Below, piece by piece: positions 2,216-62,941 of a stretch of 64,000 nt of DNA (its first letter is position 1; each line of letters starts with the position of its first letter). The notes under the pieces were generated by a model that saw only the letters and a program-made list of their open reading frames with translations, did no database searches and was not told where the DNA came from. The stretch covers positions 18,163,974 to 18,227,973 of the forward strand of contig NC_065536.1 in NCBI RefSeq assembly GCF_932294415.1. The letters run 5' to 3'. Source of the DNA: Quercus robur (Eukaryota; Streptophyta; Magnoliopsida; Fagales; Fagaceae). The translations under genes were made by a program, and so were the position numbers.

Positions 2216-2885
2216 TGATGGTGCTGAAAACAATACCACCAATGAGTCGCACGCTCCTCACTCGATCGCAAATGGCACCTGCACAACGAAAAGGAATAAC
2301 CTAGCAGAGAGCACCGGTGTGGTACCGGCCGAATACCCTCCGAAGGTCAAGTTAGAACTATTCTCACTGCTCTAGAGTGCTAGAGAGGGTAAAATTACGC
2401 GTACCTTGGTTTGTGAGGGTGCCTGGGTTTTTATAGTAGAGAGGGCTGACCCTCTTTTCCTTGGAGTAGAAGTCTTTTCCTTATCGGAGTCTTCTTGGGC
2501 GTATTTTACGGGATCCTTTCCATATAGGAGTCCTTAGGTTCCATGAAACATGGGGAGCAAGTTATTTATTTGTACATGTAAACGTGCGGAATAGGCATTT
2601 CATAGACTGACGCCGTCAGTCTATGTTATCCCGTCAGTCTACACTTATCCCGTGACCTTCAGGATGTTCGGCTTTATGTGTTCTTTTGCCTTAGGTCACC
2701 GTCAGCCTCGAAGGTATGCTGACGGCAAGACCGTCTCGTCACCCTTGTTAAGTCTGCATCTTCACCATTGCAAGGCATGCACCGTCGCCCTTGTTAAGTA
2801 TGTGCCGTCACCCTTTTTAGGTCTTCACCGTCGCTCTTGTCAGTTATGTACCGTCACGCTGGCCAGCATAATTTTATCCTCATCA
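2216..2885 (-). repeat. 3' LTR of the Tat element (left in window)
   Basis: 670 bp. It matches 11,311-11,980 except at 2,358 (C against T at 11,453) and 2,550 (A against G at 11,645). It is followed on the plus side by the polypurine tract, which identifies it as the 3' LTR of a minus-strand element. A TATA box lies at 2,436-2,428 on the minus strand. From the presumed start near 2,400 to the end of the LTR there is no ATG on the minus strand. Confidence 0.95.
2601..2625. repeat. 25-bp perfect palindrome in LTR U3 (left copy)
   Basis: Two 12-base arms (catagactgacg and its complement) flank a single C. The arms contain TGACG in opposite orientations. The second LTR has the identical palindrome at 11,696-11,720. 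It lies upstream of the TATA box in element orientation, so it could be a bZIP-type binding site. Confidence 0.9.
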
Positions 2886-2895
2886 TTTGCCCCCT
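2886..2895 (-). other. polypurine tract of the Tat element
   Basis: Minus strand AGGGGGCAAA directly upstream of the 3' LTR. It is the expected plus-strand primer site for reverse transcription. Confidence 0.8.
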
Positions 2896-3066
2896 ACTCC
2901 ATAACTCCGTCACCCTCTATACTGACGGGCTATGGAGTTTGTTTTCAAAAGAGGCAGAAACCTCGTTTGCGTGGATCTGAGCATTTAATGCCTTGGACAG
3001 GTGGCTCGTTCCCATTGGCCTCACTTCTGACGAGACGTCGCTTCGTCTTCCGCGCCATTTTTTCCA

Positions 3067-3074
3067 TATATAAA
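3067..3074 (+). promoter_or_regulatory. TATA box of the opposite-strand gene
   Basis: TATATAAA on the plus strand, about 245 bp before the ATG at 3,314. A donor CCG|GTAAGT at 3,209 and acceptors at 3,305 or 3,313 would remove a 5'-UTR intron of about 100 bp and place the ATG right after the junction. The arrangement suggests an internal promoter independent of the LTR. Confidence 0.6.
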
Positions 3075-3313
3075 CAGCGTTTCCAGTCATTTTTTCACTA
3101 TTTCATCCTTGCTGAACTTGTGGAGAGACAGACCGTCGCTCACCTTCCGTCAGCTTCACTTCCGTCAGTTTATCCGTTGCTGTAGCCGTCCAGAAGGCTT
3201 CCATACCGGTAAGTTTTCATCCTCTCTCCTTCCTTCTTCTTTTTATTTTTGCCTCATTAGTGAGGCCGTCAGCCTAGGTACTTAGTTTGAACCCGTCACT
3301 TGTAGGTAGTCAG

Positions 3314-5524
3314 ATGTCGAGTGACGCGTCTTGTGACGAGTCGTCAGTCCGCGAAGGAGCGGGCTACGACGAGACCTTTGGTTCTGGAAACGAGTCAGAC
3401 TTCTCCCTCCCGTCAGAGAGAGAGTCGTCAACCCAATCTCCTGACGGCAATGAGAGTTTTGCTGAGGGAGATGATGAGGGAAGAGGGGATGAAAATGACG
3501 GGGGTGGAATGGATATTGACGGAGAGAATAGTAACGGGGAGGAGAGATCCAGTGAAGGAACCTCGGAGGGTACCGTAGATAACCGTCCCTTCATTCTTCC
3601 TGAGGATTGGGCCGTCAACAGATTTTTGCCTGGGATGAGTGGTAAAGTTTTTAGGGAGTTACGGATCCGTTATCAAATCCCAGACCACATCCCCCTCCGT
3701 CTCCCTAGAGAGGGTGAGAGGTGTTACTCCGGGCGGACAGCGGACGTCGGCATGTATGACGCCATGTTTGCTGCCGGCCTGAGGTTACCGTTGACGGCTC
3801 TGCACCGTCAACTAGCTGACTTCCTTGGAATATCTGTCACCCAGGTTGCCCCAAACGCCTGGAGGACTTTTATAGGAGCTGAAATCCTGTGGGGCAGCTT
3901 TAGTGGAGGGCACCGTCAGCTTACACTCGGAGAATTTTTTTATTGCTATAGGCCTCATCACATTGCCTCGTCTAAGGGGACTTATCATTTTAATGCCCGA
4001 GAGAAAGGGCTACGGTTAGTGTCAGATATGCCTGACTCAAATAGGAACTGGAAGAGTAGGTATTTTTTCGTTGAAGGGACGGACTGGGTGTGCCGTCAGG
4101 AGGAGTGGGCGACGATGCCCAGTGGTTACTTTGACAATACCTGGGCCTTTGTCAAGGATTCAGGTTAATCTCGTCACCCATGAGGCTCGTGCGTTTTTTT
4201 GAAGTGACGGTGCTAACTCTTGTTATTTTTTTCTTTTTCCAGCTTATACCCGTCCGCATATAACTGACGAGCAGGAGGAGTTCATCCATCGGATTCTAGA
4301 AATTCCTTTGGAGGACCGTAAGTGCAGGGATTTGATCACCCTTGACACCCTCCATTTATACTGTGGGGGCCTAGATCCGTCAGCGGAAGCTCGTAGGTTG
4401 GAGGAGTTTGCGCGACGACGTAAGTAGACTTTTATTTTGCCGTCAGTTTCATTCTTTCCGTCACTTTTCCTAAAGTGTTTTCTTTGTGTTGTAGAGATGG
4501 AATCTGCGAAGCAAAGGATACGGGCTGCCGCAGCTCGTCAGAAGGAGGAGAGGAAGGCCAAGGAAGCAGGGGGGGAAGCCTCGTCAACCCCCACGGCCGT
4601 CGCCAAAGTGGCGAAGAGGAAACCTGACGGGAGTGACGGCCGTCCCTCGAAAAAGCCTGCCGTCACTCCGTCAGTCGAACCATTGAAGGAAAAGTCCCCT
4701 CCGACGTCTGGCCATGGTGCGGGAAAGGGGGTGATGACTTCCACTGGTCCCGTCACTGAGGGTCCGTGCCGTCTCCTAACCCACAAAGAATATGCCGTCG
4801 GGGAGGTTGAATCCCTGATAAAACCGACGGACATGGAGCCCTGTGATCAAGTAGGGACGGAGGATTTAGGGGCGTCGGCCCTCTTTGATCTCTCTAGGGT
4901 AAGTTTCTCATATTTTTGGGTTGAACATGCCGTATCTTGTTTTGGCGTACTTTTTATCTGACGGATACGCTCTTTCAGGCCTTGGTTCGTGTCAAAGCCC
5001 TCCGTGACCGTTGTGTGGCGAAGGAGGGGGTCGTCAGTCGAGTTCGCAGCCATAACAAGAACTTGCTGAATCAGCAGGCTCAGTATAAGGAAGCCGTCCG
5101 TCTCCTTAACCAGGAGCTGCAGGAAGTTAAGGAGAAACTGACGACGGTCAGTGGCGAGAACGTCAAGCTCCAAGGAGAGGTGACGGCTCTGGAGGAGAAG
5201 TTACAGACGGCGGGGGCTGACGCGATTGGAGACTTCAAAACGTCGCAGTCATTTATCGACTCATGTGGTCAATATTACGGCACTGGGTTCGATGACTGCC
5301 TTCGACAGGTCGCGTCGGCCTTCCCGGAGCTGGACTTATCTGGGATTTCAATGGATGATGGAGACGACGTCTCTCTTCAGCCAGAACCTACTCCGGAGCA
5401 TGACGGCTCGGTAGTCCTGGCTCAGCCTGCTGCTAATCCTACAGCTTCAGATTCTCCAACCGTTATCGTGGATGTCGAAGACCATCAGGCTGACGGAAAC
5501 CCTGCTGACGCTCCCGCTGCTTAA
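3314..5524 (+). CDS. opposite-strand four-exon gene inside the Tat element
   Basis: Exons 3,314-4,163, 4,243-4,419, 4,495-4,898 and 4,979-5,524. All three introns are short (75-80 bp) with GT-AG borders, and the joined frame gives 658 residues without a stop. Each exon alone runs into a stop soon after its splice site, so the structure is clear. Residues 1-95 are acidic and Ser/Glu-rich. From about 98 (FILPEDWAVNRFLPGMSGKV onward) the sequence resembles the plant 'putative gypsy type transposon' domain found in extra ORFs of Tat elements. Exon 3 has a basic KRK/KK region around 383-395 that could be a nuclear signal. Exon 4 starts with a coiled coil (about 478-560) and ends in a low-complexity acidic tail. 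It is antisense to the element RNA. Function is unknown. Confidence 0.85.
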
Positions 5525-6720
5525 TTATGGCTATGTAAAATTTTTTTTTTTTTTTTTTTTTTTGAAAATAGTTGTAATCTTTAGACGGTCTTTTGGAGAA
5601 CAGTTGTAATTTTTTAAACAGTTGTAGTTTTAAACAGTTGTAATGTTTAAGTGCCCTCGTCGTTTATGTTCGTATTTCATTTCCCGTCTGCTTGGAATAC
5701 GTCAGCTCTTTAACCTGTTGAAAACCCCGTCGGTTTTTTGACCGTCGGTTTGCAATTGTTGTCTTTTTGACTTCTTTGTCGATCCGTCAGTTTTGAGGAT
5801 CTTGTCCCTAAGATGGTTATTCCATCATGTTGCATCGTTAGCCTTTTGGCCTTTTTGGGCCGTCAGCCTTTTTTTTGACCGTCGGTTTACAATTGTTGTC
5901 TTTTTGACTTCTTTGTCGATCCGTCAGTTTTGAGGATCTTGTCCCTAAGATGGTTATTCCATCATGTTGCATCGTTAGCCTTTTGGCCTTTTTGGGCCGT
6001 CAGCCTTTTTTTTGACCGTCGGTTTACAATTGTTGTCTTTTTGACTTCTTTGTCGATCCGTCAGTTTTGAGGATCTTGTCCCTAAGATGGTTATTCCATC
6101 ATGTTGCATCGTTAGCCTTTTGGCCTTTTTGGGCCGTCAGCCTTTTTTTTGACCGTCGGTTTACAATTGTTGTCTTTTTGACTTCTTTGTCGATCCGTCA
6201 GTTTTGAGGATCTTGTCCCTAAGATGGTTATTCCATCATGTTGCATCGTTAGCCTTTTGGCATTTTTGGGCCGTCAGCCTCTTTGGCCGTGGCCTTGGAT
6301 GTTTTTTGACATCGTTCTAGCCCGTCAGTTTTTAGGCGTTGATGTCTTTTGACATTTTTGTCGATCCGTCGGCCTTTTAGCTTAGCCTTTTCGGACCGTT
6401 GTTTCTTTGGCTTTTTAGCCTTGGTGTTTTCTTTTACATCTTCATTGGTCCGTCAGGTTTTTCTTTAGTCCGTGTGTTATGGACTTTGTCGTTTTCGGGC
6501 CGCAAACTTAGCGGACCGTCGGAAAAGAATACACTTCAGCAATTTCTGAATAAAACTCCTCTTATTGCCATGTATTTAAATAAAAGTAATTAAAACCAAA
6601 TTCTGCCCCTTGGGCTAAAAAAGTAATGTTGCGAAAAAACTGGAATAAACGATAAATCTGAGGAGTTAAACTATAATTTGCTGAAAAATAAAAAAGAAGT
6701 TGGTCTTCATGCTGCTGCTC
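5525..6720. other. non-coding spacer between the two convergent genes of the element
   Basis: Apart from the 137-bp array this stretch has a run of T at about 5,540-5,562 just after the stop of the opposite-strand gene and T-rich CCGTCA-studded sequence. No coding region is supported. Transcripts of the plus-strand gene and the minus-strand gag-pol converge here. Confidence 0.7.
5741..6288 (+). repeat. four tandem 137-bp repeats
   Basis: Units begin at 5,741, 5,878, 6,015 and 6,152. They are nearly identical, each containing CCGTCGGTTT, a CCGTCAG and a TTTTTTTGA end. Units 2 to 4 are closer to each other than to the first. The array lies between the end of pol and the opposite-strand gene, where Tat elements often carry tandem repeats. 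The shorter CCGTCAG-Tn motif continues to about 6,520 without clear periodicity. Confidence 0.95.
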
Positions 6721-9700
6721 CTATTGGTAGTACTTCCGAAGGTGCTCGGTGTTCCATGGATGTGGTAGTTTCTGTCCCTCCAATGTTTCAAGGTGGTAAG
6801 TACCTTTTCTCTGCCACGACGAAACTCGGTAAGGACCTTCCCAGTTGGGGCCGAGTTTCCCTTGGGTAGGGTCCCTAGCGGCGCCCATGACCTTTCTAAG
6901 AACAAGGTCTCCGACTTGGAAGTCTCTGTGTCGGACCCCAGAGTTGTAGTATTTGGCCATGCGATCCTGGTACCTAGCGAGCCTTTGTTCTGCTGCTGCC
7001 CGGATCTCGTCCACTAGGTCAAGCTGTAGTCGCGTAGCCTCATCGTTTTTGCTCTCATCGTGGTTGTGTACCCTGTAACTTGCGAGTCCAACTTCGGCCG
7101 GGATGACTGCTTCGCTTCCGTACGTCAGGCGGAACGGAGTCTCTCCTGTGGGTGTTCTTGCCGTCGTCCTGTATGCCCATAGTACACTTGGCAATTCTTC
7201 GGGCCATATACCTTTTGCCCCCTCGAGCCGAGTCTTGATGATCTTGAGCAAGGATCGGTTCGTGACTTCGACCTGTCCATTAGCTTGAGGGTGGGCGGGG
7301 GAGGAGTAGTGGTTCTTTATTCCCAACTGTGAGCAAAAGTCCCGGAAATGATCGTTGTCGAACTGTCTCCCGTTGTCCGAGACAAAGACTCTAGGAATGC
7401 CAAACCTGCATACGATGCATCTCCAGACGAAGCTCCGAACGTTTTTTTCAGTAATCGTGGCTAAAGCTTCAGCTTCCACCCATTTCGTGAAATAGTTGAT
7501 GCCTACTACCAGGAATTTCAGCTGCCGCATAGCTGTAGGGAACGGTCCCATAATATCTAACCCCCATTGTGCGAACGGCCACGGGGCCGTCATCGGGGTC
7601 AGCTCTTCGGTTGGTTGTCTAATGATATTGCTGAACCTTTGGCATTTGTCACAGGCCCGGACGTAGGCTTCGGCGTCCTTCTGCATGGTGGGCCAATAGT
7701 AACCCGCTTGCACAAGCTTGTGTACCAGCGATCTGGACCCTGAGTGGTTTCCGCAGATTCCTTCATGCACTTCCCTCATCACGTAGTCTGCCTCTTCCGT
7801 ACCCAAGCATCTTAGATATGGTCGGGAGAAACCTCTCTTGTACAGGACGTCTTTTATCAGGACGAACCTCGCCGCCTGAACTTTAAGTTTTCTTGCGGCT
7901 TCCTTCTCGTCTGGTAAGATGCCGTCTTTTAGGTACGCGACTAACGGCGCTGTCCAGCTGCTGTCGGAGCATATTTCCTGCACGTCACCGATATCTATCA
8001 GCGGGGAAAGCTGTATGAAGGAGAGTACATTACCAGGGACGACCATCCGTTCTGCTGAGGCGGCCTTGGCGAGACGGTCTGCTCGCTCGTTTTCCTCTCT
8101 GGGAATCTGGATGATTTTGGCTTCTAGGTCGCCTACTCTTGCTCTTACTTCATCAAGGTACTTCTTCATTTTTTCGCTCTTGCACTCGTAGTCTCCATTT
8201 ATCTGGTTGGTGATGACCTGTGAATCGCAGTAGACGACTACCCTTGCGGCTCCTGCTGCTTTGGCGAGGTCGAGTCCTGCTATCAGTGCCTCATATTCTG
8301 ATTCATTGTTGGTGGCGGGAAAGTTTAGACGGACCATACATTTAATGGTGTCTCCTTCAGGTGATAGTAACACAATGCCGGCCCCTGCGGCTTGCCTGTT
8401 GGATGATCCGTCCGTATGTATGCTCCATTGAGGGGACTCTGCTGCCCCCTGGTCCTCGTCATGGGTGAACTCAGCTATAAAGTCGGCGACAGCCTGTCCC
8501 TTGATGGCGGTCCGCGGACGATACTGAATGTCAAATTCGCTCAGTTCGATCGCCCACAATGCCAGTCGGCCCGCGGCCTCGGGGCTGCTCATTGCTCGCC
8601 GTAAAGGCTTGTCAGTCAGGACATTTACCGTGTGAGCTTGGAAGTACGGTTTGAGCTTTCGGGCTGCCGTAACCAATGCGAAGGCAAGTTTTTCCATCAG
8701 CGGGTATCTTTCCTCGGCACCGCGAAGCGCTCGGCTTGCGTAGTATACGGGCTTTTGCACTCTTTCTTCTTCTCTCATCAGGGCTGCGCTAACAGCTGCG
8801 GGGGAGCTATCCTTGGGGCAAGCTCTGTTAAGGTCGGTGAAGTCCACACACATCCGCCATTTCCCGCTCGCTTTCTTCACCATTACTACATTTGCTAACC
8901 AGTCGGGATAGTACACTTCCCTGATGAAGCTTGCTTCCCGTAGCTTTCTGACTTCCTCTGCTATGGCTCGGTCTCGCTCCGGGGCAAACACCCTCTTCTT
9001 TTGTCTGACGGGTGAAAAGGCGGGCGACACATTCAGCTTATGCACCATGATTGAAGGATCTATTCCTGGCATATCTTCATGACCCCATGCGAATACGTCT
9101 TGATTTTGCCTAAGGAATGTTATGAGCTCTTGACGGGTCGTGGGGTTAGCGAGTGTTCCAATTTTGGTCATTCGGCCAGGATCGGAACTGTCAAGGGGTA
9201 TTTCTTCTAGCTTCTCAACCGGCTCCGTTACCGTCCGGTGCTCTTCTATACTTAAAGTCTGAACCTGATCCTCCATTTCCACCATGGCTATGTAACATTC
9301 GCGCGCGGCCATCTGATTCCCGCGCAACTCCCCTACTCCGTAGTCAGTTGGGAACTTAATCATCAGGTGGTAGGTGGAGGTTACTGCCTTCCATGAGTTG
9401 AGCGTGGGTCGCCCGAGGATAGCGTTGTAGGCTGATGAGCAATCAACAACCAAGAATGTCACGTCCCTGGCTATCTGTTGGGGGTAATCACCCACAATTA
9501 CGGATAAGGTGACTGCGCCCAGTGGGAATACTCGGCTCCCGCCGAAGCCGACAAGCGGGGCATTTGTTGGGATCAGTCGCCCCCTGTCGATCCTCATCTG
9601 CTGGAACGCGGTGTAGTATAAAATATCTGCTGAACTGCCGTTGTCGATGAGCACCCGGTGCATATTGTAATCTCCTACACGCAAGCTGACGACGAGTGCG

Positions 9701-11250
9701 TCGTCATGTGGATGGTGAAGGCGTCGTGCGTCTTCTTCTGAGAATTCGATCACGGGACCTTCTCTTCTTGCTATCTTCGGCACGGCTCCCGTCAGTTGAA
9801 CATTCTGTATCATCCGGAGATAGGTCTTACGGGCCTTCTTGGATGACCCGGCAGCGGTTATCCCTCCTACGATCATCCTTATATCCCCAATTGGGGGCCT
9901 TGGTCGCTCATTGTCCCGTCGGGGGTGCTGGTCTTGTGCGGGGGGATCCGCCCTCTCTTTGCTAACGAATCTCTGCAGCTTTCCTTGTCTAATAAGGGCT
10001 TCAATCTGCTGCTTGAGGTCATAGCAATCTGCTGTGTCGTGGCCGTGGTCGCGGTGGAATCGGCAGTACTTATCTCGTGAACGTTTGTTGGGGTCACTCT
10101 TCAGCTTTCCTGGGAACGTCAGCGATTCCTCGTCCTTGATCTGCATAAGGACTTGATCTATCGGGGCTGTTAGCGGAGTGAAGCTTGTGAACCTTCCCCC
10201 CAGGGGCTTAGGGCGTCTTTCGTCCCTTCGGTCCGCGGTTCTTGCCTTCTTTCGGCTTTGGTCCTGCCGACCGTCTTCCTGCCGTTCTCTTTTTCTAGGC
10301 CTCTCTTCCCGAGCTAAGAGTGCATCTTCAGCGTTCATATACTTTGTGGCACGATAAAGTACTTCTGACATGGTTTTTGGGTCGTTTTTGTATATGGAAA
10401 ACAAAAACTTGCCATTCTTCAAACCATTTGTAAATGCCGCGACAAATATCTTGTCGTCAGCTTCGTCGATCGAGAGCGCCTCTTTATTGAAACGGGAGAT
10501 GTAGGCTCTTAGAGTTTCGTCTTCTCGCTGCTTCATCAAGCAAGCCGTAGACTTCTTGTACCGATGGCCTCCAATAAAGTGTGCGGTAAACTGAGCGCTG
10601 AGTTCCTTGAAGGTGCTGATGGAGTTTGGGGCCAGTCGACTGAACCAAATTCTTGCCGCGCCCTTTAGCGTTGTAGGGAAGGCCCTACACATGATGGCGT
10701 CCGCTACTCCTTGAAGGTGCATTAGGGTTTTGAAGGTCTCCAGGTGGTCCAGTGGGTCCTTGACCCCGTCATAACTGTCTATCTGCGGCATGCGGAACTT
10801 GCTTGGCAACGGGTAGGAGTTGACGGTAGTGGTGAACGGTGAGTCCGTTCGGTTGACAAGGTCGTCAAGGTCGCTCGATACTCGTCCCTTGAGAGCATTC
10901 ATCATAACCTCCATTTGTTCCTTCATGGCTTGCATCTCCGCGAGAACGAGGGGCGGAGTGGTTTCCGCGAGGGAGGGGATGCTCGTGTTCTGTCGTTCAG
11001 GTTTGCTCGGGGCGTTGCTGGCCTGGGGTCCTTCCTGGTTTCTCCTGTCAGCGCTGGTTCCTTCCTGCTCTGCTCCTTGGTTGTTGGGAGCTGCATTCTT
11101 CTGTCTCAGTTGCTCTTCTAGGTCGTGATTTCGCTTTGTGAGGCGCTCCACGGCGGCGGCGAGCGTCCTCACCTGTCTTTCAAGCGCGGTTGTAGGAGTT
11201 TCTTCTTCTTGAATGTCGTTGTTGGTCGCCATTGAGCGAGTGAGTACCAT
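6721..11250 (-). CDS. Tat-lineage gag-pol polyprotein lacking the RT catalytic core
   Basis: One open frame of 1,509 residues. The first ATG after the LTR (11,250) is taken as the start; the frame is open without an ATG back into the LTR. Order of parts: coiled-coil and gag core (about 20-330), a degenerate Cys-His knuckle (CRFHRDHGHDTADC, about 396-409), aspartic protease (LIDNGSSADIL, Asp near 536), N-terminal RT (about 750-815), first RNase H remnant (about 836-915), second RNase H (HTDGSS, NNESEYEAL, YCDSQ, ENERADRLA; Asp 947, Glu 985, Asp 1009, Asp 1058), integrase with HHCC zinc finger (about 1162-1203) and D-D-E at about 1232, 1292 and 1328 with 35 residues between the last two. After the RT motif FTDLNRACPKDS the sequence jumps to the RNase H approach (SPAAVSAAL). 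The polymerase fingers and palm with the YxDD motif, roughly 230 residues in relatives, are absent with the frame kept. Confidence 0.92.
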   Translation of the reverse strand: MVLTRSMATNNDIQEEETPTTALERQVRTLAAAVERLTKRNHDLEEQLRQKNAAPNNQGAEQEGTSADRRNQEGPQASNAPSKPERQNTSIPSLAETTPPLVLAEMQAMKEQMEVMMNALKGRVSSDLDDLVNRTDSPFTTTVNSYPLPSKFRMPQIDSYDGVKDPLDHLETFKTLMHLQGVADAIMCRAFPTTLKGAARIWFSRLAPNSISTFKELSAQFTAHFIGGHRYKKSTACLMKQREDETLRAYISRFNKEALSIDEADDKIFVAAFTNGLKNGKFLFSIYKNDPKTMSEVLYRATKYMNAEDALLAREERPRKRERQEDGRQDQSRKKARTADRRDERRPKPLGGRFTSFTPLTAPIDQVLMQIKDEESLTFPGKLKSDPNKRSRDKYCRFHRDHGHDTADCYDLKQQIEALIRQGKLQRFVSKERADPPAQDQHPRRDNERPRPPIGDIRMIVGGITAAGSSKKARKTYLRMIQNVQLTGAVPKIARREGPVIEFSEEDARRLHHPHDDALVVSLRVGDYNMHRVLIDNGSSADILYYTAFQQMRIDRGRLIPTNAPLVGFGGSRVFPLGAVTLSVIVGDYPQQIARDVTFLVVDCSSAYNAILGRPTLNSWKAVTSTYHLMIKFPTDYGVGELRGNQMAARECYIAMVEMEDQVQTLSIEEHRTVTEPVEKLEEIPLDSSDPGRMTKIGTLANPTTRQELITFLRQNQDVFAWGHEDMPGIDPSIMVHKLNVSPAFSPVRQKKRVFAPERDRAIAEEVRKLREASFIREVYYPDWLANVVMVKKASGKWRMCVDFTDLNRACPKDSSPAAVSAALMREEERVQKPVYYASRALRGAEERYPLMEKLAFALVTAARKLKPYFQAHTVNVLTDKPLRRAMSSPEAAGRLALWAIELSEFDIQYRPRTAIKGQAVADFIAEFTHDEDQGAAESPQWSIHTDGSSNRQAAGAGIVLLSPEGDTIKCMVRLNFPATNNESEYEALIAGLDLAKAAGAARVVVYCDSQVITNQINGDYECKSEKMKKYLDEVRARVGDLEAKIIQIPREENERADRLAKAASAERMVVPGNVLSFIQLSPLIDIGDVQEICSDSSWTAPLVAYLKDGILPDEKEAARKLKVQAARFVLIKDVLYKRGFSRPYLRCLGTEEADYVMREVHEGICGNHSGSRSLVHKLVQAGYYWPTMQKDAEAYVRACDKCQRFSNIIRQPTEELTPMTAPWPFAQWGLDIMGPFPTAMRQLKFLVVGINYFTKWVEAEALATITEKNVRSFVWRCIVCRFGIPRVFVSDNGRQFDNDHFRDFCSQLGIKNHYSSPAHPQANGQVEVTNRSLLKIIKTRLEGAKGIWPEELPSVLWAYRTTARTPTGETPFRLTYGSEAVIPAEVGLASYRVHNHDESKNDEATRLQLDLVDEIRAAAEQRLARYQDRMAKYYNSGVRHRDFQVGDLVLRKVMGAARDPTQGKLGPNWEGPYRVSSWQRKGTYHLETLEGQKLPHPWNTEHLRKYYQ

Positions 11251-11290
11251 GTAACTCTCTTGTCTTGAAAGCGAGAACGTGCTAAAGCGG

Positions 11291-11308
11291 TTCCCACAGA
11301 CGGCGCCA
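11291..11308 (-). other. primer-binding site of the Tat element
   Basis: On the minus strand, two bases after the 5' LTR, the sequence reads TGGCGCCGTCTGTGGGAA. TGGCGCC is the start of the common plant gypsy primer site complementary to a tRNA 3' end (tRNA-Asp-like over the first nine bases). The exact tRNA is an inference. Confidence 0.7.
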
Positions 11309-11522
11309 ACTGATGGTGCTGAAAACAATACCACCAATGAGTCGCACGCTCCTCACTCGATCGCAAATGGCACCTGCACAACGAAAAGGAATAACCTAGC
11401 AGAGAGCACCGGTGTGGTACCGGCCGAATACCCTCCGAAGGTCAAGTTAGAATTATTCTCACTGCTCTAGAGTGCTAGAGAGGGTAAAATTACGCGTACC
11501 TTGGTTTGTGAGGGTGCCTGGG

Positions 11523-11531
11523 TTTTTATAG
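11523..11531 (-). promoter_or_regulatory. LTR promoter TATA box
   Basis: Minus strand CTATAAAAA, about 450 bp into the LTR in element orientation. Transcription would start about 30 bases on, near 11,495. The first ATG downstream is the gag start at 11,250. The same box occurs in the 3' LTR at 2,428-2,436. Confidence 0.7.
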
Positions 11532-11695
11532 TAGAGAGGGCTGACCCTCTTTTCCTTGGAGTAGAAGTCTTTTCCTTATCGGAGTCTTCTTGGGCGTATT
11601 TTACGGGATCCTTTCCATATAGGAGTCCTTAGGTTCCATGAAACGTGGGGAGCAAGTTATTTATTTGTACATGTAAACGTGCGGAATAGGCATTT

Positions 11696-11720
11696 CATAG
11701 ACTGACGCCGTCAGTCTATG
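11696..11720. repeat. 25-bp perfect palindrome in LTR U3 (right copy)
   Basis: Identical to the palindrome at 2,601-2,625, roughly 165 bp upstream of the LTR TATA box in the 5' LTR. Confidence 0.9.
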
Positions 11721-11980
11721 TTATCCCGTCAGTCTACACTTATCCCGTGACCTTCAGGATGTTCGGCTTTATGTGTTCTTTTGCCTTAGGTCACCGTCAG
11801 CCTCGAAGGTATGCTGACGGCAAGACCGTCTCGTCACCCTTGTTAAGTCTGCATCTTCACCATTGCAAGGCATGCACCGTCGCCCTTGTTAAGTATGTGC
11901 CGTCACCCTTTTTAGGTCTTCACCGTCGCTCTTGTCAGTTATGTACCGTCACGCTGGCCAGCATAATTTTATCCTCATCA

Positions 11981-11985
11981 GTGTT
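11981..11985. repeat. target-site duplication (right), GTGTT
   Basis: Second copy of the 5-bp duplication, directly after the right LTR. Removing the element and one copy restores the host reading frame. Confidence 0.95.
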
Positions 11986-13476
11986 ATTCGCCAATATCAA
12001 AAATTTTAGCTGGGGAAGCTCAAAAATTTGCTTTGGAATGCTTCCATTGACCGCTGTCCCAGCTAGAACAAGTTTCTCTAACAGCTGGCATGTAGCTATA
12101 CTCATGGGAATTCTACCAGATAACTGGTTATTTCCCATATAGAGCTCAAATAGTCGTGTGAGATTGCTAAAGATGTCTGGAATTTCTCCGGAGAAGAGGT
12201 TTTCATGTACGTGAAGTTTTTCTAGTTTCTGAAGCTTTCCAATGGACTTTGGTATTTGGCCTCTGAAAGAATTTTGTTGAATTGATAAGGCTAAAAGGTT
12301 TTGGTACCTCTCAAATCCTTGAGGGAAGCTACCGGTCAACAAATTATCATCAATACAAAATTGTTGGAGATTGAATGAGAGATTTGCAACCGAACTGGGA
12401 AGCTCACCAGCTAATTGGTTGGAATTGAGAAAGATGTACTCTAACTTGGTACATTTTGTAAGGGAACCAAATACTTGAAAATTCTGCTCTGTTGTAGAAG
12501 ATAATTTGTTTAGGCCAAGAATTAATTTGGCAAGATTTTTCAAGTTACCAAGTAAAGGAATAGGCCCAGTGAAATTATTTGAAGGGAGATCAAGGATTTC
12601 AATATGTGAAGCATTGGATAAAGAACTTGGTATTGGCCCTTCCAAACTATTGCCCCCCAGGTGGAGTTCCCTTATGTTGGGAAGGGTAAGACCTATATTG
12701 GATGGCAGCTTTCCAACAAGCCTGTTTTCTGTGAGAGATAAGAACTTCAAGGAGGATATGTTGAAAATAGAAAAGGGTATCTCACCACTTAATTGATTCT
12801 CCGATAGTTGTAGCATGACAAGATTATGGAGACGACCCAATTCATTTGGAATTTTGCCAGATATGTTGGTTCTTGCTATGCTGAGATTGGTCATAGTGGA
12901 GAGATTGCCAAAAGTAGAGGGAATTGCACCAGTAAGATTGTTCATGGATACATCAAGAATTTTCAGTCTAGGAAGTTGGCCTAGTTCACTAGGAAGGAGA
13001 CCGGTAAGTTTGTTGTTCCCAAAACTCATCTGTTCAAGCATAAGGCAATCAGATAGACTAATAGGAATGGTGCCATTGATGTTGTTTGTTGCGAGAATTA
13101 TACTCTGAAGGCTAGTAAGACGGCCTAGCTCAGAAGGAATTTGGCCAAAAAAAAAGTTGTTGGAAAGGTTTAGAGTCTTAAGGGAAGTGAGATTGGAGAG
13201 CCGAGGAGGAATATTGCCAAAGAGCCCAAGACTTGTAAGGCTTAGTGATTGGACTTGGGTTCCATTGCTGGTGCAGTTCACACCAAACCAAGTACAATGA
13301 GATGAATTTATGTTCCATCCAGAGAGAGCATTCTGAGGATCAAAAACTAAGGATTTGAAAGCTAGAAGGGCTTCTCTGTCAGTGCTGAAGTCAATGCCTC
13401 CCACCATTTTCATGCCATAACTTGAAATGATTTGAAAGAGGGAAAGAAGAAGAATTAAGAAACGGAAATGCTTCAT
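11981..13476 (-). CDS. LRR receptor-like kinase, N-terminal part (signal peptide and LRRs)
   Basis: Starts at an ATG followed by a hydrophobic stretch (FRFLILLLSLFQII) that looks like a signal peptide. An LRRNT segment follows (TDREALLAFKSLV...W, with a Cys pair around the HCTWFGVNC motif), then a long run of plant extracellular LRRs of the LxxLxxLxLxxNxLxGxIPxxLGxL type. About 497 residues are encoded before the reading frame runs into the LTR at 11,980. The last receptor residues are ...LKFLILANN. The product would be the ectodomain of a plasma-membrane receptor, the part that recognises a ligand. Downstream readthrough would add LTR-encoded residues and then stop, giving a secreted LRR fragment if the transcript is stable. 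The family assignment is firm; the ligand is unknown. Confidence 0.9.
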
Positions 13477-15996: not shown

Positions 15997-16328
15997 GGGG
16001 TGCAATACCTCAAATCTCAGCCGACTGTGTAATCCAAGGCTCATTAATTTGACACGTTATAACTCCAGCCTGGCAATCCGTGTCTCCCACTTTTTCTTTT
16101 TCATTTCAGCTACCCAATTTGAATTCAGTAAAACTCTTTCTCTCCCACCTCAACTGGGTTTCTCTTTCTCTCCCTAACGCTCCATTCTCTCAACCCGACT
16201 GTGCTTCCACCACTCTCTCAACCTCCACACTTGCTCTGTGCGTCTCCCTCAAGTCCTCAACCCCTTCATCACCGTTACCAGCATACCCAACTCAGACCCA
16301 TCAGCAAAAACAAAGAAAAAATAGCAAC

Positions 16329-16778
16329 TCACCATCTGAAACCAAATCCCCAAACACTCACACGCCTCGTAGAGCACTTTTTAGACCCAGATGAGAGAGA
16401 GAGAGAGCGAGAGCAAGGGTTGAGGTTTGGAGAGAATCGGGTGTAGAGAGAAGTGGATGCTTTTGGGGTTTGATCTAGGGAGGGAAATGAGATTGAGAAA
16501 TTTGGTCCGAAGAAGCCACCATCGGAGGTGGTGCTGAGTGGTGGTTGTGATGAGCCATGGCAGCAGAGAGAGGAAGAGGCTGACTGGTCCGGTAGGTTTT
16601 CCCTTTATCATTTTTTTTTTAATAATTAATTTGTTTTTTATAAACTCTGTTTGGTTGGTAGGAAAGGAAGGAAAGAAAATAATGGTGTCCCAATTTTGTT
16701 GATTGATTTATTTCTGCTGAATTTGATTCTATTTTCTCTTATTTTTTATGTTTTTGGTTTTTAGTTTATGAATTGAAA
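16329..16778. repeat. left arm of a large inverted repeat
   Basis: Matches the complement of 20,614-21,088 at roughly 95% by eye, including a GA-rich segment, the GGTGGTGCTGAGTGGTGG segment and an A/T-rich inner end. The spacer is about 3.8 kb. It could be two oppositely inserted copies of one element, or the long termini of a MULE-type element. C/T-rich sequence lies to the left (16,080-16,328). Confidence 0.85.
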
Positions 16779-16842
16779 TCACCTCTACTTAACCATGTTT
16801 TTGGTTTTTAGCTTAGGAATTGAAATCACCTGTACTTGAACC
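16749..16842. repeat. tandem duplication of about 47 bp
   Basis: Two adjacent copies starting CATGTTTTTGGTTTTTAG and containing GGAATTGAAATCACCT or its variant. It lies at the inner edge of the left inverted-repeat arm. Confidence 0.75.
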
Positions 16843-20613: not shown

Positions 20614-21088
20614 ACAATGTAAGACTTGATTTCAATTCATAAGCTAAAAACCAAAAACATAAAAAATAAGAGAAAATAGAATCAAATTCAGCAGAAATAA
20701 ATCAATCAACAAAATTGGGACACCATTATTTTCTTTCCTTCCTTTCCTACCAACCAAACAGAGTTTATAAAAAACAAATTAATTGAAAAAAAAAAAAAAA
20801 AAAGATAAAGGGAAAACCTACCGGACCAGTCAGCCTCTTCCTCTCTCTTTGCTGCCATGGCTCATCACAACCACCACTCAGCACCACCTCCGATGGTGGC
20901 TTCTTCAGACCAAATTTCTTAATCTCACTTCCCTCCCTAGATCAAACCCCAAAAGTATCAACTTCTCTCTACACCTGATTCTCTCCAAACCCCAACCCTT
21001 GCTCTCGCTCTCTCTCTCTCTCTCATCTGGGTCTAAAAAGTGCTCTACGAGGTGTGTAAGTGTTTGGGGATTTGGTTTCAGATGGGGA
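20614..21088. repeat. right arm of the large inverted repeat
   Basis: Complement of 16,329-16,778. Its outer end carries a small local duplication (GATTTGGT and CTAAAAAGTGCT repeated) and abuts the direct duplication starting near 21,109. No matching target duplication was seen beside the arms. Confidence 0.85.
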
Positions 21089-21108
21089 TTTGGTCTAAAA
21101 AGTGCTTA

Positions 21109-24452: not shown

Positions 24453-25424
24453 TTGGGAACAAGGAGGAAAGTGGACAAAAATTTCTTGGGTACGCACATA
24501 CTCTAAATTCATTTTCAAACTTTAAAGAAAGGAAGACACAATTTCTTTTATCTTTTCTCTCTCTTCGTTGTCTTCTCTATCACGAAATCTCCTTTTTCTT
24601 CTTCTATCCCTCATCATCTCTTTATCCCTTTTTCTTTTGGATAAAAGTTGTTATATACACTTTGTATCACACTTTATTTTTAATTGAGACGTGGTTTGGG
24701 AACAAGGAGGAAAGTGGACACAAATTTCTTGGGTACACACATACTCTAAATTCATTTTCAAACTTTAAAGAAAGGAAGACACAATTTCTTTTATCTTTTC
24801 TCTCTCTTCCTTGTCTTCTCTATCACGAAATCTCCTTTTTCTTCTTCTATTCCTCATCATCTCTTTATCCCTTTTTCTTTTGGATAAAAGTTGTTATATA
24901 CACTTTGTATCACACTTTTTTTTTAACTGAGACGTGGTTTGGGAACAAGGAGGAAAGTGGACACAAATTTCTTGGGTACACACATACTCTAAATTCATTT
25001 TCAAACTTTAAAGAAAGGAAGACACAATTTCTTTTATTTTTTCTCTCTCTTCCTTGTCTTCTCTATCACGAAATCTCCTTTTTCTTCTTCTATCCCTCAT
25101 CATCTCTTTATCCCTTTTTCTTTTGGATAAAAGTTGTTATATACACTTTGTATCACACTTTATTTTTAACTGAGATGTGGTTTGGGAACAAGGAGGAAAG
25201 TGAACACAAATTTCTTGGGTACACACATACTCTAAATTCATTTTCAAACTTTAAAGAAAGGAAGACACAATTTCTTTTATCTTTTCTCTCTCTTCCTTGT
25301 CTTCTCTATCACGAAATCTCCTTTTTCTTCTTCTATCCCTCATCATCTCTTTATCCCTTTTTCTTTTTGATAAAAGTTGTTATATACACTTCGTATCACA
25401 CTATATTTTTAACTGAGACGTGGT
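24453..25424. repeat. four tandem 243-bp repeats
   Basis: Units start with TTGGGAACAAGGAGGAAAGTG at 24,453, 24,696, 24,939 and 25,182 and are about 97% alike by eye. Because 243 is a multiple of three, one frame stays open across the array and reads as a 268-residue repetitive hydrophobic peptide (24,662-25,468). I regard that as a by-product. The unit resembles the sequence near 38,070-38,160, upstream of an EF-hand remnant. Confidence 0.95.
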
Positions 25425-25755
25425 TTCAACTAATGTTTTTAGTTATATATATATATATATATATATAACAACTTCAAATTGTGTCTTCAATTCACAATTT
25501 TAATTTTAAAAAATCGTATAACAAATACTATTCTTTTTTTAATCTCTTCTTCTATTTGTATGTCTTTGAACATTAAGGTATTGTTAATATGGTAAGGTGG
25601 CAATGGTCATACCTTGATAGGACAAATGGAGTTATTAGGGTGAATAACGTAACTATGTTGTGTTACAATTTTTGACGCAACTTTAACATGGTTAATTGTG
25701 AGTGATTATTTATCACTTTTCGCATTGACTTACCAATTTTTCTCCACTCATAACT

Positions 25756-42099: not shown

Positions 42100-43954
<1,855 letters not shown>

Positions 43955-48727: not shown

Positions 48728-49903
48728 CTACTTATGCCTCGAGAAACAAGGGAATAGATAAATCAAAATGATTTGTACCATATTTGCAGTATATACTTCG
48801 AGAGCAACCCCATAACACAATAGCCTTCTATTCTTCTTTGACACTTCTGATTCGTGTTGAGCAATTTCCCAACCCATCTGTTGTATCAAGTCATGCATTG
48901 ATAATTTGTTATTTTTAGCATTAACAACTATGAGAGACTTATCTATAAGTCTTTGAATATCATTAAATGGGTCATGCGAATTGCAACTTTGTAATATATT
49001 TACGGCAACTTCCATGCGTAATCCTTTAAGGAAACATGCTATATCAAGGAAAATATCTCATTAAGCTTTGTCTAATCCATCATAACTTATTTTGAGCACT
49101 TCTTGAATATCTGGATTAAGAATTCTTTTATACTTATCTAGTACACTTTTCCAACAACGAATATCTCTTTGATACAAATCAGAACCTATTATTTTTAAAG
49201 CTAATGGAAGACCTTTGGCATAACTTATAAATAGGTTTACGAGTTCGAAATAATCTTCCTTAGGCTTGTTTCTTTTGAATGCATTTTGACAAAAGAGTTC
49301 ACGAGATTCATGTTCATCTAATTCCTTGACCTTGTAGCTATAGTAGGTTAAATGACAATCTTCTTGAAGGGTAGACAATAACATTTTGTCTCTTGTTGTG
49401 ATAATAATTCTAAGTCCAGAAGCAAACCAATTGCATTTTCCAAGCAAATTTTTTACTTGAACTACTTTGTCCACATCATCAAGAATTAAAAGAATTCTTT
49501 TGTGGTGAAGCATGTCCATTATCACAATGATTCTTTTAAATACGCCATGCATCTTCAAATTTCGATCCCCTGAGATCTCAAAATAAAGTATCTCTTGTAA
49601 TTGAATTACGCCATTGTTTGTTCTTGACTTTTCTCTAACATCTTCTAGAAAGCAACTTCCTTCAAAATGATATGCAACTAGTTAAAAATAGCTTTTGCAA
49701 TTGATGTCTTTCATATTCCTGGAAGGCCATGGATCACTATCATGCAAACATCATTTGACTCAATATCTAAATGCCACTTTACTATTTCCTCTACAAGAGA
49801 ATCTATTCCAATAGGGTATTTAACAACAAATAATTGTGTACAATTTAATTTAATACATGAGATCTCTTCAGAAATCTCTTGGATAAATCTATGTTGAGGA
49901 TAG
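48728..49903 (-). pseudogene. NB-ARC exon of the TNL pseudogene
   Basis: The acceptor GGCAG precedes SYPQHRFIQEISEEIS at 49,903. P-loop Gly codon GGA is TGA. A one-base shift occurs near 49,680, after IAKAIFN. The 165-residue open part 49,558-49,061 holds kinase-2, RNBS-B and GLPLA. Frame continues past two stops into the ARC2 part with MHD (about 48,900). Confidence 0.8.
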
Positions 49904-56319: not shown

Positions 56320-56814
56320 TCATTTTTGTAATGTCAACCAGATATATTGCCTGCTTCATGTAGCACTATCCTCCATTCCTACACCTTCTTCATGTTATTC
56401 TTGAATCTTTCTTTGTGTTTTGTCAAAACTTCTCCAAAGTTTCCATTTTGGTTACGTACTTCTAATTGATCCACCTTGAAAAAGATTGGTTGCACAATTT
56501 GGCCTTTTTTTCTTACACTCAATAATTTTGACAAGTTCATCCAAACACCAAGTAGAAAATGCATAATTTTTAGAGAATACAATTATCGAAATCCTTGAAC
56601 TTTCAATGGCTTTGAGAAGTTCTACAGAAATTTCTTCTCCCCTTAGGAGCTCATCATCCACGAAGGTGTTAATACCTCTATCACGCAAAGTGTCATTCAA
56701 ATAACTCGTAAAACCATTGCGGGTATCTTCACCTCTAAAACTCAAAAACACATCATATCTGCATCTATGAAAGAAAGTGGAAGAGGAGTCTCCTTTGTTA
56801 GTCAAAAAAGCCAT
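56320..56814 (-). pseudogene. TIR exon of the TNL pseudogene
   Basis: The start is the ATG at 56,814, because the TIR motif follows within about 20 residues. Upstream in-frame sequence to 57,186 is low-complexity 5'-UTR with a CT/GA tract. The exon ends at a GT donor (AATGA|GTATG). One frameshift and two nonsense codons are seen. Confidence 0.8.
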
Positions 56815-56917
56815 AGTGATTAGGATAGACAGTTGAAAAGATTTTAAAGGAAGAGGAGAAAGAAAGATGTGATGAAATTGGAATGGTAAGAGTAAAAGTG
56901 AGATATTTCTGAATGGA

Positions 56918-56953
<36 letters not shown>

Positions 56954-57201
56954 TGTAAATGGCAGAGTAAAGGAATTGAATTTTTGTTCTTGTGAGGCCA
57001 ATAAGAATATGATAGTCTGTTATTGTGCAAATACTGTTGGTAGTTCGATTCACATTTTAGAGATTGCAATTTCGTAGTTGGCGACTGGGTGGCCCAAACG
57101 TGGAGGCTGAGAAATACTAATTGGAAAGTCATAGTCAGAGTTGCCATTCTGGGTTGAGGATACCCAAACCTATTATTGAGAATCAAATCTTAGTCCCGAT
57201 C

Positions 57202-60559: not shown

Positions 60560-62941
60560 TAATATGACTTAATTCTTTTAAACTAATGCAATCTTCTGAA
60601 GGACCAATACCAAGTTCTTTATCCAACGCTTCAAATATTGAACTCTTCAAATAATTTCACCGGGCATATTCCTTTACTTGGTGACTTGAAACACCTTGTC
60701 CAGTTACTCCTTGGTGGGAACAGTTTATCTTCTACAACAAAGCTCAATTACCAAGTATTTGATTCCCTTACAAACTGTACCCTGCTAAGGGAAATCCATC
60801 TGAATTCTAACCAATCAGCTGATGAACTTCCCCCTTCTGTTGCAAATCTCTCTGTCAATCTCCAACATTTATTCAAAGATTGGAAAAGTATCAAAACCTT
60901 GTGTACTTATCAACTGAGAAAAGTTTTTTTCAAAGGCAAAATACCAAACTCCATTGGAAAACATCAGAAACTAGAAAGAGTTATGGTTACTGACAACTTG
61001 TTCTCTGGAGAAATTCAGGATATCTTTAGCAATTTTACACAGTTATATGAGCTCGACATGACAAACAATTGGTTATCTGGTAGAATTCCCATGAGTATAG
61101 CAACATGCCAGTGATTAGAGATGCTTGTTCTAGCAAGGACAGCACTCAATGGAAGCATTCCAAAGCAAATTTTTTTAGCTTCCCAGCTAAAATTTTTGCT
61201 GTTGGCAAATAACTCTTTAAGCAGTTCTCTGCCCAACGAATTTGGCCATTTGAGACAGTTTGACATCATGGACATTTCTGAAAACCAGCTATCCAGAAAT
61301 ATTCCTGCAATAACCAACGTCACAACATTGCAAGAAACAAGATAACTGACTCAATACCAAAGTCACTGGAAAATCTAACAGAACTGGAGAGCTTGGATAT
61401 TTTTTCCAACAATCTCTCTGGCCTAATCCCTACAGAATTGGAGAACCTTATTGATTTGCAGATGTTAAATTTGTCTTTCAATAGCTTGAAAGGAGAAGTA
61501 CCGAAAAATGGTGTCTTTGCCAACATCAGTTGGGATTCTCTCCAGGGAAACAATCAGCTCAGCGCATTTGACCATGAGACTGTAGAAAAGCTAAGAGTCA
61601 CTACTTGTGTCACAAAAACAAAGTTGAATTCAGATTTAGTGCTCAAAGTCATTATTCCAACCTCTTCTTTCATTGTGCTTGTATGTGCATTGTGTTTAGT
61701 ATGTGCAGTGATCACCCAAAAGAAGAGAGAGACAATAAAAAATTGAAGTTCATCATCTGAACTGAAGGGTTTACCACCAAGGCTTTCTTACTCTGAAACC
61801 CAAATTGCAACAAAGTTTGACACAAAAAATTTGATAGGGAGGCGTGCTTTTGGGTCTGCTTATAGAGCTGTTTTCAGTACTAGTGAAAATGGAATCCACA
61901 CCACAGTTGCAGTGAAGGTTCTTGACTTGACACAAAGCAAAGATTCCAAGAGTTTTGATGCAGAATGTGAAGCTCTAAAAAACATCCGGCATTGGAACCT
62001 TGTTAAGGACTTCACTTCTTGTTCCAGCATTGATCACAGAGGAGCTGAATTCAAGGCTTTAGCTATGGAATTCATGTCTAATGGTAACTTGGATAAGTGG
62101 TTGTACCCAGAGGATGTTGAGTGTGGATCAACTCTGACCTTGACCCAGAGACTGAATATTGCCATTGATGTAGCTTCTGCATTAGATTACCTACATCATG
62201 ATTGTGACCCACCTGTATTCCATTGCGACTTGAAACCTGGAAATGTGCTTTTAGATGAAGATATGATTGTTCATGTAGGAGATTTTGGGTTAGCAAGGTT
62301 TCTCTCCCATGATTCATCACAGAATGGGAGTAGCACAATTGGACTAAAAGGCTCAATTGGTTATATTGCTCCAAGTATGTTGTGGATCTTACTTTATGAA
62401 ACTTAAAAGGATTTAGGGCCCGTTTGGATTGAGGGGGGAGGTAACACCCTATGTTTCTACATGCTTTCCTAAAGCTTTTATCATTTCTGGTTGGAAATAC
62501 TTGATTCTAATATCCTGAAATTCTGTTGTAGAGTATGGCTTGGGTGGAAAGGCTTCAACCAATGGGGATGTCTAATAGTTTTGGGATACTGCTGCTTGAG
62601 ATGATCATTGCCAAGAAGCCCACAGATGGGATTTTCCAGGAAGGTTTAAGCATAAACAAGTTCATCTCCGAAGTGCATGAGAGTAAAATATTGGATATTG
62701 CTGATCCAAGGCTTTTCAAGGATAATGAATCTTTTTTTGCAAAGCAGCAGTACTAAGTGAAGATAGCAGCAGCAAGAACAAAAACAACATTGCTTTCAGA
62801 GGTGACAAGTGTGTGGCTTCTATGGTGAGAGTTGGACTGTCTTGTGCTGCTGATTCATCGAAAGAACGTTTTCCTATGAGAGAAGCCTTATCGAAGTTGC
62901 AAGAGATTAAAAGATGTTCTATTGATGAAGCATTGCATTAA
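60560..62941 (+). pseudogene. LRR receptor-like kinase pseudogene, copy B
   Basis: Starts at the same truncation point as copy A, inside the LRRs. The LRR part has a stop after TCQ (61,114) and a frameshift near 61,340. An open segment 61,393-61,746 holds the last LRRs and the membrane helix (VLKVIIPTSSFIVLVCALCL). A stop follows near 61,744. The next open segment (61,831-62,406) holds [20 protein letters not shown] and DFGLARF; the glycine loop is changed to RRAFGSAY. Exon 2 (about 62,532) has one extra base after GGGGATGTCT, which ends the frame. Better preserved than copy A but broken at several points. Confidence 0.85.
62418..62445. repeat. short MITE-end fragment in the kinase intron
   Basis: GGGCCCGTTTGGATTGAGGG interrupts the intron of copy B at a place where copy A has unique sequence. 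It looks like one end of a PIF/Harbinger-type element. Confidence 0.45.

Follow-up and report, generated by a model that had tools for sequence, protein, structure and literature searches.

Can a spliced gene with a promoter of its own be housed on the opposite strand of a retrotransposon and, if so, what would its protein do there? The question is raised by positions 3067–5524 of a 64,000-nucleotide stretch of the Quercus robur genome (contig NC_065536.1; hereafter, the window, to which all coordinates refer), in which a first-pass annotation made from the letters alone had placed such a gene.

The host element

The strand opposite the gene belongs to a young LTR retrotransposon with the following parts:

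2211–2215, with the other copy at 11981–11985, unstranded: target-site duplication GTGTT
2216–2885, minus strand: 3′ LTR, 670 bp, with a sense TATAAA at ~2435 (LTR sense position 450)
2886–2900, minus strand: polypurine tract adjoining the 3′ LTR, GGAGTAGGGGGCAAA in element sense
6721–11337, minus strand: gag-pol frame, 1538 codons, TTG start as listed, comprising gag, RNase H, a second RNase H, and integrase
11311–11980, minus strand: 5′ LTR, identical to the 3′ LTR at 668 of 670 bases (99.7%)

An LTR pair with a 5-bp target duplication is general to plant LTR retrotransposons; two further Retand features accompany it here, a second RNase H and a pol–3′LTR region (2886–6720) of 3835 bp. The pol matches follow one another as RT_RNaseH (843–935), RVT_3 (975–1093), Integrase_H2C2 (1183–1235), and rve (1254–1350), and the RVT_3 match would correspond to the second RNase H (aRH), whose position between RH and INT is common to Ogre and Retand (PMC6317226); the pol–3′LTR region of Retand elements measures 2,933–6,566 bp in PMC11963269. 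The host is probably a Retand/Tat-type Ty3/gypsy element on the minus strand, and the second RNase H, the long pol–3′LTR region, and the orientation of the element bear out the earlier assignment of the gene to the opposite strand of a Tat-type element.

Within the gag-pol frame, no RVT_1 (reverse transcriptase core) match was obtained with Pfam up to E 10, under filters that drop most matches above ~0.1; the frame runs directly from ACPKDS to SPAAVSAALM near 8808 and stays open over 1538 codons despite the undetected RT core. Lacking a detectable core, this copy would have moved with enzymes supplied in trans and is most likely non-autonomous. It is inserted in an LRR receptor-kinase gene, with LRR matches on both sides and the kinase domain on the left; the interrupted pieces, both on the minus strand, are an LRR ORF at 11935–13476 and an LRR-kinase ORF at 1022–2242.

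Elsewhere in the window, plus-strand ORFs at 60638–62406 and 42202–42567 read like LRR receptor-kinase pieces, and minus-strand ORFs at 49061–49558 and 56452–57186 are TIR/NBS-like, all named from their translations. Inverted repeats of ~460 bp (16325–16786 and 20622–21092, 88–97% complementary by segment) flank ~3.8 kb, the whole possibly being a DNA transposon with long inverted ends. At 24453–25481, four copies of a unit spaced at 243 bp, 85–100% alike, are traversed by an open frame of 268 codons (24662–25468).

The spliced antisense gene and its product

The gene model was rebuilt on the plus strand at 3067–5524 with every feature that the first-pass annotation had described, namely, a TATA promoter of its own, a probable 5′-UTR intron, and four exons separated by three GT-AG introns, which when joined encode a product of exactly 658 codons:

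3067–3074, plus strand: putative TATA box of the antisense gene, TATATAAA, divergent from the LTR's sense TATA
3209–3305, plus strand: putative 5′-UTR intron (GTAAGT...TTGTAG)
3314–4163, plus strand: coding exon 1, with the acidic N-terminus and a TRP28/PF04195-like region (aa 150–212)
4164–4242, plus strand: intron 1, 79 nt, with a CTAAC branch-point-like site
4243–4419, plus strand: coding exon 2
4420–4494, plus strand: intron 2, 75 nt
4495–4898, plus strand: coding exon 3, with a basic, bipartite-NLS-like patch (aa 383–396)
4899–4978, plus strand: intron 3, 80 nt
4979–5524, plus strand: coding exon 4, with weak coiled-coil-family matches, an acidic C-terminus, and the stop at 5522–5524
5734–6284, unstranded: tandem array, 4.0 copies of a 137-bp unit with 8 CCGTCA in total, within the putative 3′ UTR
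6549–6692, plus strand: four AATAAA (6549, 6579, 6644, and 6687), putative poly(A) signals of the antisense gene

When the longest ATG frame was sought by dynamic programming, with at most three GT-AG introns allowed, the 658-codon frame was recovered; 200 dinucleotide shuffles averaged 211 codons and never exceeded 401, and the reverse strand gave 201. The best frame without introns has 284 codons. The word GTAAGT stands at three of the four model donors and occurs four times on the plus strand of 2886–5524, a count reached in 2 of 1000 shuffles, and not once on the minus strand. The length of the frame, the donor words, the T-rich introns (42–49% T, compared with 16–25% in exons), and the in-frame stop that would follow retention of any one of the three coding introns together argue that the antisense gene is real as a sequence model, its transcript and splicing being predicted. 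Codon usage modelled on gag-pol makes the true frame the best of six only in exons 1 and 3, two of the four.

Short putative signals lie at both ends of the unit. The sole plus-strand TATAAA within 2216–6720 lies inside TATATAAA at 3067, and a TATAWAW is present in 12 of 1000 shuffles of 2886–3313; this putative promoter and that of the LTR (sense TATA at ~2435) diverge over ~630 bp. Since the ATG preceding that at 3314 is at 2988, with none between, the start codon is the first ATG downstream of the TATA box; the last 247 nt before it are also ATG-free in 183 of 1000 shuffles. AATAAA is absent from 2216–5524, and the putative poly(A) signals end just before the pol stop at 6721; four such words were reached in none of 1000 shuffles of 5525–6720 and in 11 of 1000 shuffles of its AT-rich tail alone. 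Bounded in this way, the antisense unit would fill the pol–3′LTR region almost exactly.

How introns could survive in an element that moves through RNA was explained in the first-pass annotation by strand, and the rebuilt model supports that logic: the antisense transcript alone would be spliced, whereas the genomic RNA would carry the introns as CT-AC and so preserve them through retrotransposition. The companion argument, that the intact frame and splice sites suggest selection, fails for this copy. Two LTR differences in 670 bp correspond to ~0.0015 substitutions per site since insertion and thus to ~3 expected substitutions in the CDS, 4.6% of which would be disabling; the neutral chance that the gene has stayed intact since insertion is 0.86, counting 12 splice-site bases and point substitutions only. 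Intactness of this copy therefore says little about selection, and the long frame would speak instead for selection before insertion, in the parent lineage. No relative was confirmed when viral contigs were scanned with exon 1, two pol stretches, and an integrase segment or when genome contigs were scanned with exon 1 and the integrase segment; these scans covered viral and prokaryote sequence, in which a plant relative is unlikely. A tblastn search of plasmids with a pol stretch gave five records, all below 60% identity, which we read as distant integrase/RNase H matches.

The predicted protein opens with an acidic N-terminus (net −23 across residues 1–90), followed at residues 150–212 by a weak match to PF04195 (Transposase_28, TRP28; E 5.8e-4, profile positions 5–67 of 69) that scores 20.5, below the Pfam gathering score of 26.2. 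The well-conserved TRP28 positions are G21, P25, L34, P46, N47, and F55 (PMC11963269); when residue 155 is taken as G21, four of these six (G21, P25, P46, and N47) are found at the expected spacing, and alanine stands in the places of both L34 and F55. A PDB sequence search with this region returned seven sequences, all TRPV2 (E 0.16 to 0.28), judged to be chance. A basic, bipartite-NLS-like patch lies at residues 383–396, and several coiled-coil families match weakly, below cut-off, between residues 473 and 584. The domain layout first proposed is supported, with the transposon-type domain and the coiled coil represented by weak, below-cut-off matches. With its acidic tail, TRP28-like region, NLS-like patch, and possible coiled coil, the product may be nuclear and perhaps oligomeric.

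The CCGTCA array

The antisense unit and the adjoining LTR are also the site of an unusual accumulation of one short word:

2613–6455, unstranded: dispersed CCGTCA/TGACGG array, 44 sites, spanning the LTR U3, promoter, exons, introns, and tandem array

No hexamer of 2216–6720, the stretch from the LTR to pol, is more strongly over-represented than CCGTCA/TGACGG. With extra copies of the tandem array omitted, 38 sites are found against 1.66 expected (z 29), and none of 300 shuffles held more than 6. By a second, analytical score, the word ranks top in the CDS alone (z 15.5) and in non-coding sequence alone (z 23.1); by that score, the best non-repetitive word reached at most 9.0 across 12 control windows (4094 bp, 11981–61108), the one scoring 9.0 containing a tandem array, and the best word of gag-pol reached 4.7. 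Beyond the array, CCGTCA occurs 6 times in the 4590 bp of gag-pol, 4 times over the 52 kb on the element's right, and nowhere in the 2.2 kb on its left. All six sites in the LTR are upstream of the sense TATA (sense positions 29–267), and the interval separating the two divergent TATA boxes contains eight. The CDS holds 18, in all five frames that avoid a stop, compared with a mean of 4.2 and a maximum of 11 in synonymous-codon shuffles (n = 2000).

Several simpler origins of the array were considered and rejected: tandem-repeat spread as the only cause, because the count of 38 sites already allows for a single array copy; age or GC content by itself, because gag-pol, part of the same insertion, has so few; and protein-driven repeats, on the strength of the synonymous-codon shuffles.

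The word varies at its edges. Neighbors that differ at the first letter (TCGTCA, 11 vs. 2.0 expected; GCGTCA, 5 vs. 1.5) or at the last (CCGTCG, 11 vs. 1.7; CCGTCC and CCGTCT, 7 each) are enriched, and CCGACA and CCGCCA are absent. Among the forms that CG decay would produce, CCATCA is mildly high (4 vs. 1.5) and CTGTCA is not (1 vs. 1.9). The sites tend to extend as G, then Y, any base, and T; one orientation is shared by 16 of the 20 sites outside exons (binomial P 0.012) and by 9 of the 18 in the CDS. CCGTCA would on this evidence look like a maintained DNA site, not decayed repeats.

Judged by titles and the starts of abstracts, none of the papers listed in literature searches concerns such an array in retrotransposons. 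A text search for the word itself surfaced VaccSat6 of Vaccinium, both of whose primers hold CTGACGG/CCGTCAG at or near the 5′ end and whose units have likenesses placed in an Ogre-like Ty3-gypsy element (PMC7290377); the resemblance may be chance.

Relatives, rivals, and possible function

The kind of gene described here is already known from relatives: antisense TRP28 genes characterize the lineage, such ORFs being found in 97% of the Retand clusters surveyed by Vicient (2025; PMC11963269), and the PF04195 domain is reported in 23% of Retand elements (PMC6317226). Maize Grande gene23 (Gomez-Orte 2013), as recounted in PMC7264820, is reported to have an upstream promoter of its own and to encode a nuclear protein. 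The novelty that the first-pass annotation saw in the gene and its promoter is reduced accordingly; its caution that the function of such extra ORFs is not established was right, and the literature consulted gives the function as unknown. Introns in antisense Retand genes are described in none of the literature consulted, which for gene23 comprised the account in PMC7264820. In the main text of PMC11963269, a word search finds neither “intron” nor “splicing,” and “spliced” only in a reference title; PMC7264820 urges attention to possible antisense and spliced transcripts. The Ogre intron between gag-pro and rt-rh-int (PMC6317226) likewise belongs to a Tat-clade element but is removed from the sense transcript, whereas the introns here are antisense.

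Like the Retand TRP28 ORFs of PMC11963269, our gene is antisense between pol and the 3′ LTR and has a TRP28-like region with four of six conserved positions at matching intervals, and the elements share a long pol–3′LTR region (3835 bp here), tandem repeats, and non-autonomous relatives. That survey relied on ORF Finder, whereas our protein is spread over four exons. Tandem units there measure 8–100 bp, compared with 137 bp here, and an intact RT domain was required for inclusion, which left RT-less elements such as ours unsampled. Grande gene23 is similarly an antisense accessory gene downstream of pol, with a reported promoter and nuclear protein, but the account in PMC7264820 mentions no motif array of the kind found here. 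PvRetro13 ORF2 and other SMC-domain antisense ORFs (PMC7264820, PMC11963269) occupy the same place, and their SMC matches suggest long coiled coils, for which exon 4 offers weak family matches. The counts in PMC11963269 (57 TRP28 ORFs, 17 other domains, and 72 ORFs with any domain) imply, by our arithmetic, that most other domains sit in ORFs separate from the TRP28 one, whereas here both regions fall within one spliced gene model. To judge from the full exon map, surveys restricted to ORFs may have split one protein into “TRP28” and “coiled-coil” ORFs.

We propose that the locus is an antisense accessory gene (aORF-3R/eORF-3′R, TRP28 type) of a Retand-lineage Ty3/gypsy element and that its protein binds the element's own CCGTCA(G) sites, an explanation toward which we lean with modest confidence. 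The unit would comprise its own TATA promoter, the 5′-UTR intron, four coding exons, and poly(A) signals before pol; its nuclear protein would bind sites in the LTR U3 and throughout the antisense unit, and binding could control the transcription or silencing of the element's own copies. CCGTCA is thus a candidate, proposed and unproven, for the binding site of the antisense protein.

A host bZIP factor is the main rival for CCGTCA binding. CCGTCA/TGACGG contains TGACG, the core of plant bZIP as-1/TGA sites, and the eight sites between the divergent promoters would suit a host factor that drives both. The sites, however, also fill the coding exons, introns, and tandem array, reaching 6450, ~3.4 kb from the antisense TATA, and ACGTCA, the better-known bZIP context, is not enriched (2 vs. 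1.73). Were the host factor nonetheless the reader of the array, the spliced TRP28 gene would be real and its protein otherwise employed, e.g., in nuclear entry of the pre-integration complex, whose import and accessory factors are discussed in PMC7264820; we regard this combination as unlikely, if worth keeping in mind. An intact but non-functional passenger, a remnant in a recently moved non-autonomous element, would account for a pol without an RVT_1 match and for a frame whose neutral survival since insertion is ~0.86, yet nothing is missing from the frame, the splice sites, or the promoter-like and poly(A)-like sites, and such ORFs are retained across the lineage (97% of clusters; PMC11963269), which makes this reading distinctly improbable.

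Still less probable is that the antisense RNA is the functional product, pairing with the element RNA to trigger or buffer silencing while the frame is secondary. The predicted transcript would complement most of the pol–3′LTR part of the element RNA, and PMC7264820 raises the possibility, but such an RNA would not need a 658-codon frame kept across three introns, and splicing removes pairing at the introns. Capture of a host gene by the element, which its introns and promoter-like site might bring to mind, is hardly credible: PMC11963269 reports TRP28 similarity nowhere outside transposable elements, and both the weak PF04195 match and the antisense position agree with the lineage.

For an element protein that binds a short word repeated through its own element, as we propose for CCGTCA, VANC of the VANDAL transposons is a precedent (PMC5735166). 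The resemblance to VANC anti-silencing proteins (PMC5735166, PMC10398659) is one of working principle only: in both cases, a transposon encodes a protein and carries a repeated short DNA word, known here from sequence alone. VANDALs are DNA transposons, whereas ours is an LTR retrotransposon; VANC21 sites are non-coding, whereas CCGTCA crowds the coding exons as well; and binding and demethylation have been shown for VANC, whereas here there is a motif array plus a candidate protein. The VANC comparison has already been raised for extra ORFs of other LTR retrotransposons (PMC12844716). A bolder form of our proposal, which we offer tentatively and consider rather doubtful, is that Retand-type elements carry a self-recognition system in which the DNA-binding nuclear protein of a spliced antisense gene would mark the members of its own family and de-silence (or limit) them, its target CCGTCA(G) having built up in the U3 of the LTR, in the bidirectional promoter region, in the introns, and in the protein's own coding exons. 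If true, this would be the LTR-retrotransposon counterpart of the VANC/VANDAL systems.

Antisense TRP28 ORFs are present in nearly all of the Retand clusters surveyed (PMC11963269). The CCGTCA array turns the statement that they “may regulate transposition” into a concrete binding assay, and if the protein binds CCGTCA, plant LTR retrotransposons would own a sequence-specific, trans-acting control system.
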